Shown here: positions 1 to 7,811 of the stretch, in pieces
How the letters are laid out: the number at the start of each line of letters is the position of its first letter
Position numbering within the stretch: position 1 is the stretch's first letter
From: Actinoplanes missouriensis 431
GTDB taxonomy: Bacteria > Actinomycetota > Actinomycetes > Mycobacteriales > Micromonosporaceae
NCBI RefSeq assembly: GCF_000284295.1
Contig: NC_017093.1
Span: forward strand, 7,440,001-7,504,000
Direction: 5' to 3'
DNA: 64,000 bases
Notes under the pieces: model-generated
Told to the model about the DNA's origin: nothing
Database searches by the model: none
What the model saw: the letters and a program-made list of their open reading frames with translations, nothing else
Program-made: the position numbers and the translations under genes

Positions 1-1293
1 GCCGAACTCCTCCTCGGCCGAGTCGGCCAGGAAGGTGAGGCCGTTCTTCGCGACGTTCAGCTCCCCGACCAGCTCCATCAGCCGGTCCACCTTCTCCTGG
101 TCGACCTTGAGCACCCGGGTGCCGACCTGGCCGCCGGGGTCGTCGGCCCGGCCGGTGGGCTCGGCGGGCGGTCCGGCGGCGGCCACCGGTGCGGACGCGG
201 CCGCTGCCACCGGCACGGTGCCGACCGGCGCCGGCGCGGCCTCGGCGAGGAGACGTTCCACCGCTTCGCTCACGCTTGCGCGGTCGGCCTCGGTCAGATC
301 TTCGGGTACGCCCAGAGCCCGCGCCGCCGCCATGACGGCCAGCGCCACGGACCGCAACTGAACGCCCTCGACCGGATTGATCTCCAGGGTCCGCTGGGCC
401 GCGGCGAGCACCGACCGGGCGTCGGCGGCCAGCTCGGAGTCGATCACCTCGGTGACCGCGATGGTGACCTTCTCCTCGACCTTCAGCGGTGGCTCGCCGC
501 TGAGATGCCGGGTGATCGCGTCGCCGTCCAGCTCGACGATCTGCACCTGGTCCGGCACGTACCGGAACAGGTACTCCAGCTCGCCGATGCCGGCCCGGGT
601 GGCGACCACGAAGGAGAGCAGGCAGACGTACTCGTCGTACTCCTCCGGCGCGGGCCACTGCTCGGGCTGCACGATCCCGAGCTTGTCCAGACCGGGCACC
701 TGGCGTACCAGATGGATGGGGTCCTCGGCCCGGAAGAAGCAGTCCGCGTCCGGGGTGTAGCGGACGAACCGCATGGTCGAGGTGGTGGTCTCCAGCCAGG
801 TCGCGGTCTCGGTGAGCCACTCGGCGTCGAACCACGCGAGCCACTCGGGCGCCGCATCGATCACGGCGATGCCCGCGGCCGCGGTCGCCGCGGTGTGCGC
901 GACCGGCTCACCGCCGAGCGGCGCCCGCAACTTGGTGATCAGCCCGGCCGCGTCGTTGCCGGCGCTGGCGGGCAGCCGCTCGTGCGCCGTGACGTGCGCG
1001 AGCCAGCCGCGGATCAGGTCGAACGCGGCGAGCAGGTCGTCGGTCATGCCGGAGTCGAGGGCGAGGCGGCCCCCGCGTACCGCGTCCAGAAGATCCTCGG
1101 CCGCGTGGGTGAGCCGGGTCAGCTCGGGGAAGTCGAACAGGCCGGACGAGCCCTTGAAGGTGTGCGCAGCGCGGAACACCTCGTTGACCAGCTCGGCGTC
1201 GCCGGGATCGCGCTCCAGGTGCAGGAGGCCTTCGTCGACCGAGGCGAGCAGGTCGTTCGCCTCGGCGAGGAACTGTGCGAGCAACGGATTCAT
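1..1293 (-). CDS. cheA: Chemotaxis histidine kinase CheA (partial, N-terminal 431 codons)
   Basis: Sensor kinase of the chemotaxis complex, which phosphorylates CheY and CheB. Read on the minus strand from the ATG at 1293, the protein opens with an HPt (P1) domain carrying the phospho-acceptor motif AAHTFKGSSGLF (His44). A divergent middle region follows, then an Ala/Pro-rich linker, and the start of the P3 dimerisation helix (KVDQEKVDRLMELVGELN) just before the window edge. The ATP-binding and CheW-like domains must lie outside the window. The start overlaps the cheY stop by 4 nt (ATGA), so the two are translationally coupled. It is the last visible gene of a seven-gene minus-strand chemotaxis operon. 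The family call is secure; only the 5' part is present. Confidence 0.93.
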   Translation of the reverse strand, partial: MNPLLAQFLAEANDLLASVDEGLLHLERDPGDAELVNEVFRAAHTFKGSSGLFDFPELTRLTHAAEDLLDAVRGGRLALDSGMTDDLLAAFDLIRGWLAHVTAHERLPASAGNDAAGLITKLRAPLGGEPVAHTAATAAAGIAVIDAAPEWLAWFDAEWLTETATWLETTTSTMRFVRYTPDADCFFRAEDPIHLVRQVPGLDKLGIVQPEQWPAPEEYDEYVCLLSFVVATRAGIGELEYLFRYVPDQVQIVELDGDAITRHLSGEPPLKVEEKVTIAVTEVIDSELAADARSVLAAAQRTLEINPVEGVQLRSVALAVMAAARALGVPEDLTEADRASVSEAVERLLAEAAPAPVGTVPVAAAASAPVAAAGPPAEPTGRADDPGGQVGTRVLKVDQEKVDRLMELVGELNVAKNGLTFLADSAEEEFG

Positions 1294-1688
1294 GCCGGTG
1301 TGCCCCTCCCGGCCGTGAGCATGGTGGCGATCCGGATCAGCCGTTCTCCGGTGACCGGTTTGACCAGGTACAGGTTGGCGCCGGCCGCATACGCCCGGTC
1401 GGCGTCGCCGGGGCGGTCCTCGGTGCTGATCATGAGGACCGGCGCGTCGGTGGCGACGGTCTCCGAACGCAGGTTCTCGACGCAGGTGTAGCCGTTCATC
1501 TTCGGCATGTTCACGTCGACCACGAACAGGTCGAACGGTGTCGCCATGGCCGCCTCGACGGCTTCCAGGCCGTTCGCCGCCTCATCCACCTGGAAACCGG
1601 CTTCGAGCAGCAGGCTGCTGTGGTAGAGCCGCACCGTGGCGGCGTCGTCGACGACGAGCACCCGGGGCGGCGCCTCGGTATCGGTCAT
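1290..1688 (-). CDS. cheY: Single-domain response regulator, CheY-like
   Basis: A stand-alone receiver domain of 132 aa, the usual CheY length, phosphorylated by the CheA encoded next to it. The acidic pair is in VLVVDDAATVR (Asp14/15), the phospho-acceptor is Asp58 in FVVDVNMPKMNG, the conserved Ser/Thr is in LMISTE, and the switch lysine is Lys110 in YLVKPV. No output domain follows. The ATG at 1688 overlaps the cheR stop (TGATG), and the stop overlaps the cheA start, so this is a tightly coupled operon gene. An in-frame reading extends upstream but would lie inside cheR, so it was not used. The target (flagellar switch or another machine) cannot be told from sequence. Confidence 0.93.
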   Translation of the reverse strand: MTDTEAPPRVLVVDDAATVRLYHSSLLLEAGFQVDEAANGLEAVEAAMATPFDLFVVDVNMPKMNGYTCVENLRSETVATDAPVLMISTEDRPGDADRAYAAGANLYLVKPVTGERLIRIATMLTAGRGTPA

Positions 1689-2563
1689 CACTTCGCTCCG
1701 GTCGGTCGCTGGTAGACGATGCCCTCCGCCAGGCGGGTGGGTGTGAAGATCGGCGAGATCCGGCTCATCGACTCGGAATGGCCGAGGAAGAGGTAGCCGC
1801 CGGGACGCATCGCGCCGTACAGGTTCTCGGCTGCCCGGCGGCTGGAGAGCTCGTCGAAGTAGATCAGCACGTTGCGGCAGAAGACCACGTCGAAGTCGCG
1901 GAAGGCGCGCATCGCCATCGTGTCGCAGACGTTCACTCGGTGCAGCGTCACCGCGCTGCGGATGCCCTCGTCGACCTGGTACCGCCCGGACCCGACCGGG
2001 GTGAAGTACTTGTTCAGCCAGGGCTTGGGCACCCGCTGCACCGAGCGATCGTTGTAGCTGGCGTGCGCCGCCTTGGCGAGCACCTCGCTGTCGATGTCGG
2101 CGCCGTGGATCTCCACGTCGACGTGGTCGATCTGGTCCCACTCCTCCAGCAGGCGCAGCGCGATCGAGTACGGCTCCTCGCCGGTCGAGCAGGGCAACGA
2201 AAGGATCTTGACCGGCCCGACGATCCGGTTCAGCCCGCCCCGGTCACGCAGCACGTTCGGCAGCACCGTGCTGAGCATCGCGTCGAACTGGTAGTCCTCG
2301 CGCAGGAAGTACGTCTCGTTGACGGTCAACTGGTTGATCAGGTCCTGGAGCATGCCGGTGTTCTCGTTCACCCGCAGCGCCGCGAACCAGCCGCTGAACG
2401 TGTCGTACGGCGACTCCCGTACGCAAGTCTCGATCCGCTTGTCCACGAAGTAGCGCTTCGCCGAGGTGAAGTGGATCCCGGTGCGTTTGTAGAAGTACTC
2501 GGTGAACCGGACGAAGTCGGCGTCGGAGAGACCGGCCCCGGTGGCGGGCGCGCTCGCCATCAC
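1688..2563 (-). CDS. cheR: CheR-type chemoreceptor glutamate methyltransferase
   Basis: SAM-dependent methyltransferase that adds methyl esters to receptor glutamates during adaptation. The 291-aa protein has an N-terminal helical CheR domain (about residues 10-75) and a Rossmann-type catalytic domain with the SAM motif LSLPCSTGEEPYSIAL. The CheR signatures NETYFLRE and FCRNVLIYFD are also present. Two starts are possible: GTG at 2563 (4-nt GTGA overlap with the upstream HEAT-repeat gene) or ATG at 2560. The adjacent cheB supplies the opposing methylesterase. The receptor in this operon has no visible C-terminal CheR-tethering pentapeptide, so docking would be direct. Confidence 0.93.
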   Translation of the reverse strand: MMASAPATGAGLSDADFVRFTEYFYKRTGIHFTSAKRYFVDKRIETCVRESPYDTFSGWFAALRVNENTGMLQDLINQLTVNETYFLREDYQFDAMLSTVLPNVLRDRGGLNRIVGPVKILSLPCSTGEEPYSIALRLLEEWDQIDHVDVEIHGADIDSEVLAKAAHASYNDRSVQRVPKPWLNKYFTPVGSGRYQVDEGIRSAVTLHRVNVCDTMAMRAFRDFDVVFCRNVLIYFDELSSRRAAENLYGAMRPGGYLFLGHSESMSRISPIFTPTRLAEGIVYQRPTGAK

Positions 2564-3183
2564 GCCGTCCCGGCCAGACGGGGCAGGGCCGCCTGAACGG
2601 TGAATCGCAGGAACGGATCGTCCGGGAAGCGGCGCACGGCCTCCTCCAGCACGGCGGCGTGCTCGGGGCCGGCCACCGGCAGCAGCGCGTCGATCGCCGC
2701 GGTCACCACGTTCGGATGCGGGTCCTCACTGATCATCTGGACCAGCCAGGCGGCCGTGTCCGGATGGTTCAGGTCGGCCAGCACCATCGCGGTCATCACC
2801 CGGACGTCGTGGTCGGGCGCGACCAGCAGGCTGGGCAGCAGCGCCGGCATCGACCTCGGCATGGTCGCCAGCGCCTCCGCGACGGCCGTGCGCAGCGCCG
2901 CGTCGTCGCTGGCCAGGTGGACGGCGAGGCTGCCCGCCACGGTCTCGTTGTCGTGCGCCGCGAGCGTGGTGAGGATCGCGTCGCGTACGTTCGTCTCGGT
3001 CTCCACCGTCATCCGGGTGAGCAGGTGCGGCACTGATTCCTCGTCGCCCTCCAGACCCAGCGCGGCCTCCCGCCGGCAGTCCGGGTCGGGGTCGTCCAGC
3101 TGAGCCCGCAGCGCCTCCGCCGACGGTCTCTCCGGCGCGACGTCCTCGGGTTGCTCCGCTGCCTTCTTGCGGACGAGTCCCAT
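2560..3183 (-). CDS. HEAT-repeat protein embedded in the chemotaxis operon
   Basis: Soluble 207-aa protein made of HEAT-like helical repeats: successive units of roughly 30 residues such as DPDCRREAALGLEG, ETNVRDAILTTLAAHDN, DAALRTAVAEALATMP, DHDVRVMTAMVLADLN and HPNVVTAAIDALLPVAG. HEAT solenoids are protein-protein scaffolds, so a role in docking CheB, CheR or the receptor is plausible but is inferred from position alone. The ATG at 3183 follows cheB by 22 nt and the stop overlaps cheR by 4 nt, so it is co-translated with the adaptation enzymes. A longer in-frame extension upstream lies inside cheB and was rejected. Confidence 0.85.
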   Translation of the reverse strand: MGLVRKKAAEQPEDVAPERPSAEALRAQLDDPDPDCRREAALGLEGDEESVPHLLTRMTVETETNVRDAILTTLAAHDNETVAGSLAVHLASDDAALRTAVAEALATMPRSMPALLPSLLVAPDHDVRVMTAMVLADLNHPDTAAWLVQMISEDPHPNVVTAAIDALLPVAGPEHAAVLEEAVRRFPDDPFLRFTVQAALPRLAGTA

Positions 3184-3205
3184 CGTGATCACCCTTCCTC
3201 GGCGT

Positions 3206-4273
3206 TCAGCGGACCCAGTCGGCCAACTGGTCGGCGATCTCGTACGAGGGCAGCACGACCGTGGCGCCACCCCGCCGGGCGAGTTCGCCCGGCATGCCCC
3301 AGACCACCGCTGTCTCCTCGGACTCGGCGACGGTCCGGCCGCCGCCCTCCTTGACGGCGGCCATCTCGGTGGCGCCGTCATCGCCCATTCCGGTCAGCAG
3401 GGCGCACACCAGCCGTTCCGGGTCGATGTAGCGCCGGGCCGAGCCGACCAGCCGGTCCACGCTGGGATGCCAGCGGTACTCGGCGGCGGCCGGCACGCTC
3501 TTGACGATCAGGCCGTCGGTGCGCCGGGCCACCACCACGTCCGCGTTGCCCCGGCCGATGTAGATGTTGCCGCGTTGCAGGTTCATGATCCGGTCGACCT
3601 CGTGCACCCGCAGCGCGCAGATCTCGTCCAGGCGACGGGCCAGCGCCGCGGTGAACGACGCCGGGATGTGCTGCGCCACCACCACCGGGGCGCCGAGCGT
3701 GCCGGGCAGCTTGGGCAGCAGTTCGGAGAGCAGCGCCGGGCCACCGGTGGACGACCCGATCAGCAGCAGGTCGACGGCGCCGACCTTGCCCGGCTGCCGT
3801 CGCGGCGGCGGTGCGGTGGACACCTGCCGGGTCTGCGCGCGGACCCGGGCGGTCAGCCCACCGGCCCGTTTGAGCCGGGCCTGGGCCGCGGCCCGGACCT
3901 TGGTCACCAGCTCGGCGCTGACGTCCTCGATGTTGAGCGAGACGGTGCCGCCCGGTTTCGGGACGTAGTCCACCGCGCCCAGCTCCAGCGCCTCCAGCGT
4001 GACAAGCGCGTTGTGCTCGGTCAGCGAGGAGACCATGATGACCGGGGTCGGCTGCTCGTCCATGATCCGGGCGAGGCAGGTCATCCCGTCCATCTCCGGC
4101 ATGTTGATGTCGAGCGTCACCACATCCGGCTTGAGGCGTCCGAGCTGTTCCAGCGCGTCCACCCCGTTACGGGCGGTGTGCACGTCGAACTCGCCGGTGT
4201 CGGTGAGGATCCCCTTGAGTGCCCGCCGCATCAGCGCGGAGTCGTCGACGACCAGGACGGAGGTTGATGACAC
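3206..4273 (-). CDS. cheB: CheB receptor methylesterase/response regulator
   Basis: Phosphorylation-activated methylesterase that removes receptor methyl groups. An N-terminal receiver domain (acidic pair in VLVVDDSALMR, phospho-acceptor Asp55 in VVTLDINMPEMDG) is followed by a linker of about 40 residues. The CheB esterase domain carries the catalytic triad Ser175 (IGSSTGGPA), His202 (AQHIPASF) and Asp298 (LTGMGDDGA). The length of 355 aa is typical. The start is GTG at 4273, 12 nt after the triple-CheW gene. All catalytic residues are intact, so an active enzyme is expected; it pairs with CheR two genes downstream. Confidence 0.95.
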   Translation of the reverse strand: MSSTSVLVVDDSALMRRALKGILTDTGEFDVHTARNGVDALEQLGRLKPDVVTLDINMPEMDGMTCLARIMDEQPTPVIMVSSLTEHNALVTLEALELGAVDYVPKPGGTVSLNIEDVSAELVTKVRAAAQARLKRAGGLTARVRAQTRQVSTAPPPRRQPGKVGAVDLLLIGSSTGGPALLSELLPKLPGTLGAPVVVAQHIPASFTAALARRLDEICALRVHEVDRIMNLQRGNIYIGRGNADVVVARRTDGLIVKSVPAAAEYRWHPSVDRLVGSARRYIDPERLVCALLTGMGDDGATEMAAVKEGGGRTVAESEETAVVWGMPGELARRGGATVVLPSYEIADQLADWVR

Positions 4274-4285
4274 GGCAGACTCCGA

Positions 4286-5845
4286 TCACACGCCGACGAG
4301 CGCCTCGTCGACGATCGCCTCGCACAGCTCGGCAGCCTGATCGGCCTGCTCGGCCGCGAGCAGCTGGTCCACCTGGACGAGCAGCAGCATCCGCTGCTGG
4401 TCCGGCAGGTTCGCCACCCGGGAGACCACCCGCGCCTGCTCCGCGGAGAGTTCCGGGGCGGGTTCCAGCACGTTGCGCCCGACCCGGGCCACCTCGGCGA
4501 CCGAGTCGACGATGAACCCGGTGCGCACCCCACCGATGATCAGCACCACGATGCGCTGCCGCTCGTCCCGCTCGGTGCGGCCCAGCCCGAGCCGGGTCCG
4601 CAGGTCGACCACCGGGAGAACGGTTCCGCGCAGATTGACCAGGCCTTCGACGAAATCAAACGACTTGGGTACGCGGATGAGCGCTTCCGGCACCCGGATG
4701 ATCTCCTGCACGGTGTCGACGTCGACCGCGTACTCCTCGTCGTCGAGGCGGAACACCACGAACAGTTCCTCGTCGCCGCGCCCGTCGTCGGCCTCGGACC
4801 GGTCCCGTTCCACAGCCATCTCCTCGTTCTCGTCGCGGTAGTCGGCGATCTCGTTGCGCACCTCCGGCGAGTCGAACATCCGGTTCACGCTGAGCACTGA
4901 GACCAGCCGTTTGCCGTCCTCGAGGCGGCAGACCGACTCGACCTCGCTCTTACGGCCCTCACCTTCGACCACGTTGGGCAGCGGGGCGACCAGCTGATGC
5001 GGCACCCGCAGCACCTCACGCACGGTGTCCATCACCACGCCCACCACGCCACCGTCGATCGAGACCACGACGATCCGGTTCTGCGGCGCGAGCGGGGTGA
5101 CCGGCAGGCCGAAGACCCGCCGCATGCTCACCACCGGCAGCAACCGGCCGCGCAGGTCGATCACGCCGAGGACCCGGCTGCCGGCGTTCGGCACATGGCT
5201 CACCGACTCGGGCGCCTGGACGATCTCCTGCACCTGTTCGATCGGGAGCGCGTACTCCTGACCCTCCACCGCGAAGCTGACCAGCTCCAGGGTGTCGTCC
5301 GACTCGGCGTCCCCGTCCGATTCGCCCGGCACCCGGGCCGTCGCGGCGGTGTCCCGGCTGCCCCGCTCGGAGAGCCGGGAGAACTGACTGCCGATCAGGT
5401 TGTCCACGTGAAGCACCGTGGTCATGTCGCCGTCGTCGGACTTGATCACGCCGACCAGCACGTCGGAGCGGACCGTGGACTGCACCGACTCGGCCGGCTC
5501 GAGCGCCTGCGGATCGATGCTGATCACGCTCGCCACCCGGTCGACCACGAAGCCGAGCGGCACTCCGCCGTCGACCACGATCACCCGTGTCGTCTCGTCG
5601 TGGGGTGCCTGCTCCATGGAACAGCAGCCCCGCAGGTTCACCACCGGCAGCACCCGGCCCCGCAAATTAGCCAGGCCTTCCAGCGACGGCGGGCCGAGTG
5701 GCACCTTCACCACGGCCGGCATCCGGATGATCTCCTGCACCCGGTGCATCGGGAAGGCGTACCGCTCCCCCGCCATGTCGAACGTGACATAGTCCGTGTT
5801 CTCGTCGTCCAGCTCGTCGGCGCCGAGCTCCTCGTCGGTGTCCAT
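4286..5845 (-). CDS. Triple-domain CheW coupling protein
   Basis: CheW normally is one domain of about 150-170 aa linking receptors to CheA. This 519-aa protein contains three in series, at about residues 17-152, 186-323 and 359-497. Each has the same landmarks: an N-terminal Y/F-A-x-P/D strand, VQEII or VQEIV, an LRG-(R/T)-V/L-LPVV core, and a closing strand-rich segment. They are joined by acidic Asp/Glu-rich linkers. The ATG at 5845 is preceded by an AGGGGGAA ribosome-binding site, which decides the start over a longer Arg/Pro-rich reading. It lies 22 nt after the receptor gene. Such a protein could bridge several receptors or kinases. No kinase or receiver domain is present. Confidence 0.93.
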   Translation of the reverse strand: MDTDEELGADELDDENTDYVTFDMAGERYAFPMHRVQEIIRMPAVVKVPLGPPSLEGLANLRGRVLPVVNLRGCCSMEQAPHDETTRVIVVDGGVPLGFVVDRVASVISIDPQALEPAESVQSTVRSDVLVGVIKSDDGDMTTVLHVDNLIGSQFSRLSERGSRDTAATARVPGESDGDAESDDTLELVSFAVEGQEYALPIEQVQEIVQAPESVSHVPNAGSRVLGVIDLRGRLLPVVSMRRVFGLPVTPLAPQNRIVVVSIDGGVVGVVMDTVREVLRVPHQLVAPLPNVVEGEGRKSEVESVCRLEDGKRLVSVLSVNRMFDSPEVRNEIADYRDENEEMAVERDRSEADDGRGDEELFVVFRLDDEEYAVDVDTVQEIIRVPEALIRVPKSFDFVEGLVNLRGTVLPVVDLRTRLGLGRTERDERQRIVVLIIGGVRTGFIVDSVAEVARVGRNVLEPAPELSAEQARVVSRVANLPDQQRMLLLVQVDQLLAAEQADQAAELCEAIVDEALVGV

Positions 5846-5867: not shown

Positions 5868-7811
5868 TCAGCCGGCGTTCTGAAGCTCGTCCGCGAGCGC
5901 GGCGATCTCCTCGACCGCGGCGGCGAGTTCCTCGGCGCCCTGCGCCTGCTCCCGGGCCGCCGTTGACGCCTGCCCGGCGAGCTGTTCGGCCTCGTTCGCG
6001 GCCGTGGCGATCTGCTCGAGACCGATCTTGACCTCACCGAGCGAGCTGGCGATCTGCATCGCCGACTCCTTGACCTCGACGTTGCCCGCGCGGACCTGCT
6101 GCATGTCGCGCTGGATCTCCTCGAGACGTGCGGTGGTGGCCTTCGCGGACTCCGCCTCGGCCAGCGACAGCCGGCTGGTCTCCTCCAGATCGCCGCGTAC
6201 CTCCACGATCCGGTCCTGCACCGACTTCACCAGGTCCTTGATCCGGTCGGCGTTCTCCCCCGAGTCACGGGCCAGGTTGCGGATGTCGGTGGAGACGACG
6301 GCGAAGCCCTTGCCGAACTCGCCGGCCCGCGCCGATTCCACCGACCCGTTGACCGCGAGCATGTTGGTCTGGATGGAGACGTTCGCGATGGCATCGACGA
6401 TCTTGTCGATCCGGCGGGAGATCTGCTCCAGCTCGGTGACCTTGCGAACGTTCTCGATGCCCTCCCGGGCGCCCTGCCCGATCGCGTCGATCATGGAGTC
6501 GACCGACTCCTTGTTCGCGGCCAGCAATTCCAGGATCCCGTCCGAGCGCTCGGCCGCTGATCCGCCGCGCTCCACCGACAGCTGAGCGCCCGTCTCGATC
6601 TGGCTGACCAGTTCGGAGGTCTGCTGCCCCTTCTCGGCAGCCGTCCGCGCGCCCGCGTTGATCTCGTTGATCGCCACGTTGATCTGACTGGCCGCCCGGG
6701 TGATCTCCTCGACCGCGGCGGAGAGCTCCTCGGCCGACGAGGCGACCTCCTCGGCGCTCTTCGCGATGTCGGTGCTGTTGCGCAGCGTCTCGGAGACCTC
6801 GGCCAGCAGATCGGCGGCCTGCTCGCTCTGCCGCAAGGCCTGGGTCTGCTGCGCGACCGTCTGGAGCGACTCCTCGCACGCCGCGGACTGCTGCTCGGCC
6901 GCCGCCGCGATCTCCTCGGAGCGGGCCTTGGCCGCGCCTGCCGAGCGCCGGGCCTGCTGTGCCGCGGTGGCCATCTCGACCGCACCAGCCATGATCGTGC
7001 CCATGTCGGCCCGGATGGTCTCCAACTGCGAGCTGATGGTCTTGCCCTTGTCGGCCTCGCCCCGGGCCGATTCGGCGGACGTCTGCACCGCCCCGGCGAT
7101 CTCGGTGACGCTGCTGCGCACCTCGTCGATCAGGTCGCGGATCTGCCGGGCGCTGCGCTCGCTCGTCTCGGCCAGGGTGCGCACCTCGTCGGCGACCACA
7201 GCGAAGCCCTTGCCGTGCTGCCGGGCCCGGGCAGCCTCGATCGCGGCGTTCAACGCCAGCAGGTTGGTCTGGTCGGCGATGTGCGCGACGGTCTTGACGA
7301 TCTCGCCGATCTCGTCGGCCTGCTTCTCCAATTCGGTGATCTTCGCGACCGAGGTGGTCTGCCGGTTCGACGCGCTGGTGACATTGGCGAGCAGGGTGTT
7401 GATCCCGATCAGCGTCTCGTTGAGCAGGTTCTGGAGGGTTTGGCTCAGCTCGGCCACCTGCCGGGTGGTCGTCTCCTGCCCCTCGGCCCGTTCCTCGACC
7501 TGGTTCATCGCGGCGAGGCTCTGCTGGGTCGCGCCCGATGCCTCCTCGGCGCCGGCCGCGATCTGCTGCATGGTCTCGGAGAGCTGCCGGGAAGCCTCGG
7601 CGGCCTGCGCGTTCTGCGCGGAGATCTCGGCGGTGGCGGCGGCGATCCGCTCCGCGGACTGCTGCTGCTTCGCCACCGAACGGGCCTGGCGCCGGCCGGC
7701 GTCGGCGTCGCCGCCCCGGGCCGGCGCGGGCCGCGCGGCAGCGGGTGCGGCGGCCGGCCGGGCCCGGGAGGCCTCGGTGGTGCGCCCGGAGGAGGTGCTG
7801 GTGAGGGGCAT
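5868..7811 (-). CDS. Soluble methyl-accepting protein with two signalling tips
   Basis: A 647-aa chemoreceptor-like protein without signal peptide, membrane segment, HAMP or recognisable sensor domain. After an Ala/Pro/Arg-rich N-terminus (about 1-45), it is almost wholly long helical coiled coil. The conserved receptor hairpin tip occurs twice: [18 protein letters not shown] (about 178-195, canonical) and [20 protein letters not shown] (about 476-495, with Val/Gly/Ser replacements). Each is followed by GKGFAVV and a descending helix. The ATG at 7811 has GGGAG eight bases upstream; an upstream in-frame reading lacks this and is atypical in composition. It is the first gene of the chemotaxis operon. 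Stimulus sensing is unknown and may need a partner protein. Confidence 0.9.

Follow-up and report, generated by a model that had tools for sequence, protein, structure and literature searches.

DosM (VC1403), a chemoreceptor of cluster I of Vibrio cholerae, which is of the F9 class, carries tandem signalling domains in a membrane-free protein and is encoded beside a protein with three CheW domains (PMC7534058, PMC9321776). According to passages of a survey of this class, the pairing of a double-signalling-domain receptor with a three-domain concatenated CheW is unique to F9, full F9 clusters are present in 64 of 2781 species, and a sensory domain is absent from 98% of DosM homologues (PMC9321776). 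The part of the tomography report that concerns DosM places the V. cholerae protein across both layers of the array (PMC7534058), the baseplates of which are described as lying 35 nm apart. F9 systems have also been reported in three species of Actinomycetia, all of which form zoospores; the passages concerned leave the species unnamed and DosM undiscussed (PMC10746217). The present analysis deals with a stretch of 64,000 nucleotides from Actinoplanes missouriensis 431 (contig NC_017093.1, positions 7,440,001 to 7,504,000), hereafter the window, and with a gene in it, at 5868..7811, which had been read from the sequence alone as encoding a soluble chemoreceptor with two signalling tips.

Judged by its domain content, the encoded protein is a DosM-type receptor and a member of the published family. 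In the published work a tandem-domain receptor next to a triple CheW marks out the F9 class, so the finding belongs to a known family, and it is quite possible that this receptor has already been counted in print. The A. missouriensis locus shares the F9 class with the zoospore-forming Actinomycetia; it differs from that of V. cholerae in belonging to an actinomycete, and its likeness to DosM is one of domain description. A new kind of receptor, which the sequence-only reading had implied, was rejected, since the DosM type is published (PMC7534058, PMC9321776), as is the occurrence of F9 in zoospore-forming actinomycetes. New here are a near-invariant spacing of 300 residues between the tips, separate tip signatures and a conserved joint midway. 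Among relatives, a gammaproteobacterial protein (Alteromonas) is 42% identical to the A. missouriensis receptor, and no DosM-type match was obtained in 61 genomes from the genus to which G001, the genome with the V. anguillarum locus, belongs, a scan that scored at most 20 candidates per genome and had no positive control.

A receptor with two signalling domains in one chain

The open reading frame, strand and coordinates had been given correctly (Table 1). MCPsignal, the signalling domain of methyl-accepting chemotaxis proteins (MCPs), is the sole Pfam domain of the 647-residue receptor and matches two stretches with 200.5 bits in all. Scored singly across the whole genome, scanned as one contig of 8,773,466 bases, the two stretches reach 111.3 and 93.1 bits (cut-off 34.6), and among the 31 MCPsignal matches listed genome-wide only this gene holds two matches in one open frame. 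The two halves align with each other at 33% identity over 267 positions with 3 gaps (E 2e-35). These results bear out the twofold hairpin tip of the sequence-only reading, both segments being related to the signalling domain and to each other, and the tips lie near the residues that it gave (178-195 and 476-495).

The protein also shares with DosM the lack of a sensor or membrane domain, as the same reading had noted. The Pfam search of the 647 residues returned neither a sensor domain nor any domain besides MCPsignal, and no membrane helix was found in them, the highest Kyte-Doolittle mean over 19 residues being 0.97. Proline is absent after residue 30.

Table 1. Features of the receptor, its operon and related loci; coordinates are those of the window unless a locus (L) or genome (C1) handle precedes them
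Feature	Coordinates	Strand	Basis or remark
DosM-type receptor gene	5868..7811	-	647 residues, ATG at 7811; Pfam, self-alignment
Signalling tip 1, residues 181-198	7218..7271	-	tip pattern, slice comparison
Joint between hairpins, residues 346-348 (S-T-D)	6768..6776	-	helix break in model, heptad shift, conservation
Signalling tip 2, residues 481-498, own conserved signature	6318..6371	-	tip pattern, slice comparison
CheW3, three CheW domains in one chain	4286..5845	-	Pfam
CheB methylesterase with receiver domain	3206..4273	-	Pfam
HEAT-repeat protein	2560..3186	-	Pfam; start set from homologues, most 194-209 residues
CheR methyltransferase	1688..2563	-	Pfam
CheY-like receiver protein	1290..1691	-	Pfam
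CheA kinase	1..1293; complete at L042:4934-7294	-	runs past window edge; complete protein 786 residues
Short single-tip MCP	L042:3228-4277; C1 7437227-7438276	-	operon end, just outside window
Protein of about 80 residues after CheA	L128:19789-20031; L129:20042-20278; L130:19553-19792; L131:20027-20263		plasmid F9 operons

Tip spacing, tip signatures and the joint

In 130 of 132 sequences, that of A. missouriensis among them, exactly 300 residues separate the two tips. The set, used without redundancy thinning, comprised 121 proteins (the A. missouriensis receptor and the best 120 of 7984 hits), seven further loci and four plasmid loci. All 118 proteins in which both tips were found by pattern have the 300-residue spacing; alignment of the remaining three gave 300 in two and 252 in the third (P0066). 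The spacing is also 300 in six of the seven loci and in all four plasmid loci. Of the two exceptions, P0066 has a 48-residue deletion ending at residue 352 and is possibly a damaged metagenome sequence, while the 402 residues of the Denitrovibrio protein (L051) reflect an inserted stretch holding a CZB domain. Across the 118 proteins, 100 to 237 residues precede tip 1 and 166 to 174 lie between tip 2 and the C-terminus. The equal spacing of the tips led to the rejection of an artefact of sequencing or annotation as the source of the double receptor.

The two tips were compared in 123-residue slices from 32 DosM-type sequences (25 of the 50 in alignment A1 and the seven loci), with 24 other receptors of the A. 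missouriensis genome as a comparison set. The resulting tree separates the 32 tip-1 slices from the 32 tip-2 slices (support 0.88 and 1.0), which places the duplication before the divergence of these sequences. Mean identity is 60.5% within tip 1 and 59.3% within tip 2; tip 1 and tip 2 of the same protein share 32.4% on average. Residues D180, L184, L187, A189 and V210 are invariant in tip 1, as are M484, V487, G489, D509 and I510 in tip 2, where I480 is kept in 30 of 32; since each tip has invariant residues of its own, tip 2 is more than a degenerate version of tip 1. The valine, glycine and serine changes to which the sequence-only reading drew attention in tip 2 are genuine and of long standing, with V487 and G489 kept throughout and S490 in 24 sequences. 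The departure from the usual tip sequence is, as these comparisons indicate, a property of both tips and not of tip 2 alone, and the difference between them is old. Tip 2 may, as the sequence-only reading supposed, bind a coupling domain of another kind. Docking by one end only, the other tip being degenerate, is weighed against the same alignment. It finds some encouragement in the arginine at position 197 of tip 1, present in 13 of the 32 sequences including that of A. missouriensis where usual tips carry glycine, and in the isoleucine, methionine, valine and glycine changes of tip 2; both tips are nevertheless strongly conserved, with E192, E492 and R195 in every sequence and R495 in 31, and a single docking end appears very unlikely.

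The AlphaFold model of the single chain (mean predicted local distance difference test, pLDDT, 89.4; predicted template modelling score, pTM, 0.69) contains helices at residues 36-195, 197-345 and 349-646 and renders the turn at tip 2 as helical. The break at 346-348 falls within a conserved motif (S346 in all 50 sequences, D348 in 48, K351 in 49 and E354 in 50). Heptad phase lies at about 0-60 degrees in most 25-residue blocks of hairpin A and at about 255-320 degrees in most of those of hairpin B, so that the phase moves by about one residue across the joint; deviations occur in the blocks close to the tips, and only one to nine large hydrophobic residues fall in each block. The hairpin arms are about 148-160 residues long in the model, and F9 receptors are classed as 44H in PMC10746217. 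Hairpin B matches the whole fold of the soluble receptor of Thermotoga maritima (PDB 2ch7) and hairpin A matches it by sequence profile, although 2ch7 has one tip per chain.

Proposed arrangement of the receptor in a double-layered array

The DosM-type receptor is probably the scaffold of an F9-class cytoplasmic array, spanning two CheA/CheW baseplates. Each half would be an extended helical hairpin with a docking tip at its end, and the halves would be joined tail to tail at the conserved joint, so that the molecule would lie between the two baseplates with one tip in each and tie the two receptor layers to each other at a set spacing. As the receptor lacks a sensor, input would have to come from elsewhere, namely from other receptors sharing the trimers. 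This arrangement draws on the two tips, the F9 operon membership, the near-invariant spacing, the joint and the separate tip signatures computed here, and on the V. cholerae literature for the double layer and the spanning role. We infer that the same assembly would form in A. missouriensis, probably in zoospores. The earlier suggestion that one protein could bridge two arrays agrees with family membership, inasmuch as DosM spans two baseplates of one sandwich, and is not new.

Some observations weigh against a spanning rod. Three hundred helical residues drawn out as a straight rod measure 44.5 nm by computation, as against the 35 nm described for V. cholerae, and the single-chain AlphaFold model seems, from aligned ranges, to pack the hairpins side by side. 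The rod length and the apparent side-by-side packing speak instead for a single-chain pseudo-dimer, in which the joint makes a U-turn and hairpins A and B pair into one four-helix bundle, both differing tips then lying at the same end in one baseplate and the sandwich consisting of two opposed layers. The earlier alternative of a self-contained double hairpin gains from the same packing and loses to the tomography, which sets DosM across both layers in the passages that describe it (PMC7534058). The packing is itself open to another reading, in that AlphaFold, when modelling a single chain, may place within it contacts that belong to a homodimer and, in an arrangement judged from aligned ranges, long helices match by common arrangement; a pseudo-dimer is on balance unlikely. 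Extended to the class, this folding would turn DosM into a one-chain pseudo-heterodimer whose two tips dock in the same baseplate, and F9 sandwiches into two opposed, overlapping layers, which would account for a thickness of 35 nm rather than 44.5 nm; this more sweeping version is improbable. Single-chain chemoreceptors with two signalling hairpins per chain have reportedly been made as laboratory constructs, and bear on such folding. In a weaker form the rod would be right, yet the two baseplates may present faces of different chemistry, given that the sequences of tip 1 and tip 2 do not converge. A recent, lineage-specific fusion of two ordinary receptors without special function, to which the homology of the halves might point, is rejected, being contradicted by the separate grouping of the tip slices and by the constant spacing.

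The scaffold reading places a well-described, functionally unexplained array type in a genetically tractable organism that swims during part of its life. Concrete tests of how a double-layered array is built can start from the joint, the 300-residue tip distance and the fixed signature of each tip, and the mismatch between chain length and the published baseplate distance makes the accepted model checkable.

The F9 operon and its neighbours

The receptor gene heads an operon, followed on the same strand by genes for the triple CheW, CheB, a HEAT-repeat protein, CheR, CheY and CheA. Both a concatenated triple CheW adjoining the receptor, its three domains having been recognised in the sequence-only reading and now by Pfam, and a cluster containing CheA, CheB, CheR and CheY are therefore present, as in other F9 systems. 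Past the window edge, CheA is followed by a small frame, a second CheY and a short MCP. Comparison was made with the seven best-scoring of at least 80 related loci (tblastn), which had been found via generic tip patterns and most of which resemble ordinary receptors, and with four plasmid loci from 17 records (annotation). A CheW gene directly follows the receptor in all 11 loci, and the full order receptor-CheW-CheB-HEAT-CheR-CheY-CheA is kept in seven (L045, L048, L050 and L128-L131). L047 has no operon member past CheB, its contig ending about 2 kb further, and tblastn gave no HEAT match at L046, L049 and L051. The HEAT-repeat gene between cheB and cheR is thus found again in seven of the 11 other F9 loci compared. 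The protein of about 80 residues found after CheA in the four plasmid F9 operons may be STAS-like, and a similar frame lies in A. missouriensis at about L042:4690-4935 on the minus strand. In the Denitrovibrio protein (L051:10001-12127), the CZB zinc-binding domain is inserted in hairpin B (53.1 bits), and by its domains this protein combines a double receptor with a sensor of its own.

In the short MCP at the operon end, the hairpin is followed by a helix bearing an FQDISRQ motif, and the C-terminal residues are IELF. Among the 120 family members listed of 1286 hits, A. missouriensis included, the pattern [FY]QD...Q occurs in all and the IELF end in 118; these marks are found in none of the 121 DosM-type proteins and in none of 26 other receptor frames of the A. 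missouriensis genome (30 loci yielded 28 frames, from which DosM and the short MCP were set aside). A D-x3-Q pair on a helix is a feature of CheZ, and the short MCP has such a pair, D271 and Q275, in FQDISRQ, on model helix 216-298. In this model (pLDDT 77.4, pTM 0.41) the hairpin is followed by a linker, the motif helix and a tail that is poorly predicted. The short MCP is perhaps an array-docked phosphatase of phosphorylated CheY (CheY-P), a candidate role suggested by the motif. Pfam CheZ gave no match to the A. missouriensis protein and sub-cut-off scores in three of six family members scanned (best P0237, 27.2 bits; cut-off 30.7). Two ordinary receptors of the same genome also have weak CheZ scores, of 18.3 and 14.6 bits, so that such scores count for little. 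No CheZ chain appeared among the 19 sequences listed in a profile search of solved structures or among 50 rows of a structural comparison, and the literature matches listed held no report of an MCP-CheZ fusion. Both marks are shared by MCPs encoded in F9 loci (L050, L128, L129 and L131) of Alteromonas, Eleftheria (YQDVFKQ), Sphaerotilus and Methylosinus, those of the last three genera being assigned by motif and place only. At the locus on Azospirillum plasmid p2 (L130), no MCP with a CheZ-like motif is annotated, and the F9 genes are flanked by two genes annotated CheC. The F9 cluster of V. cholerae includes a receptor, VC1394, described in the passages concerned as a little-known 24H receptor with a transmembrane region, which might at a guess be the counterpart of the short MCP.

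Elsewhere in the A. missouriensis genome, two further che clusters lie near 8.27 Mb (L043) and 5.56 Mb (L044), one with a tandem-CheW protein and one with a CheA-CheY fusion. The literature describes three che clusters, in one of which is encoded FtgA, which stops zoospore swimming.
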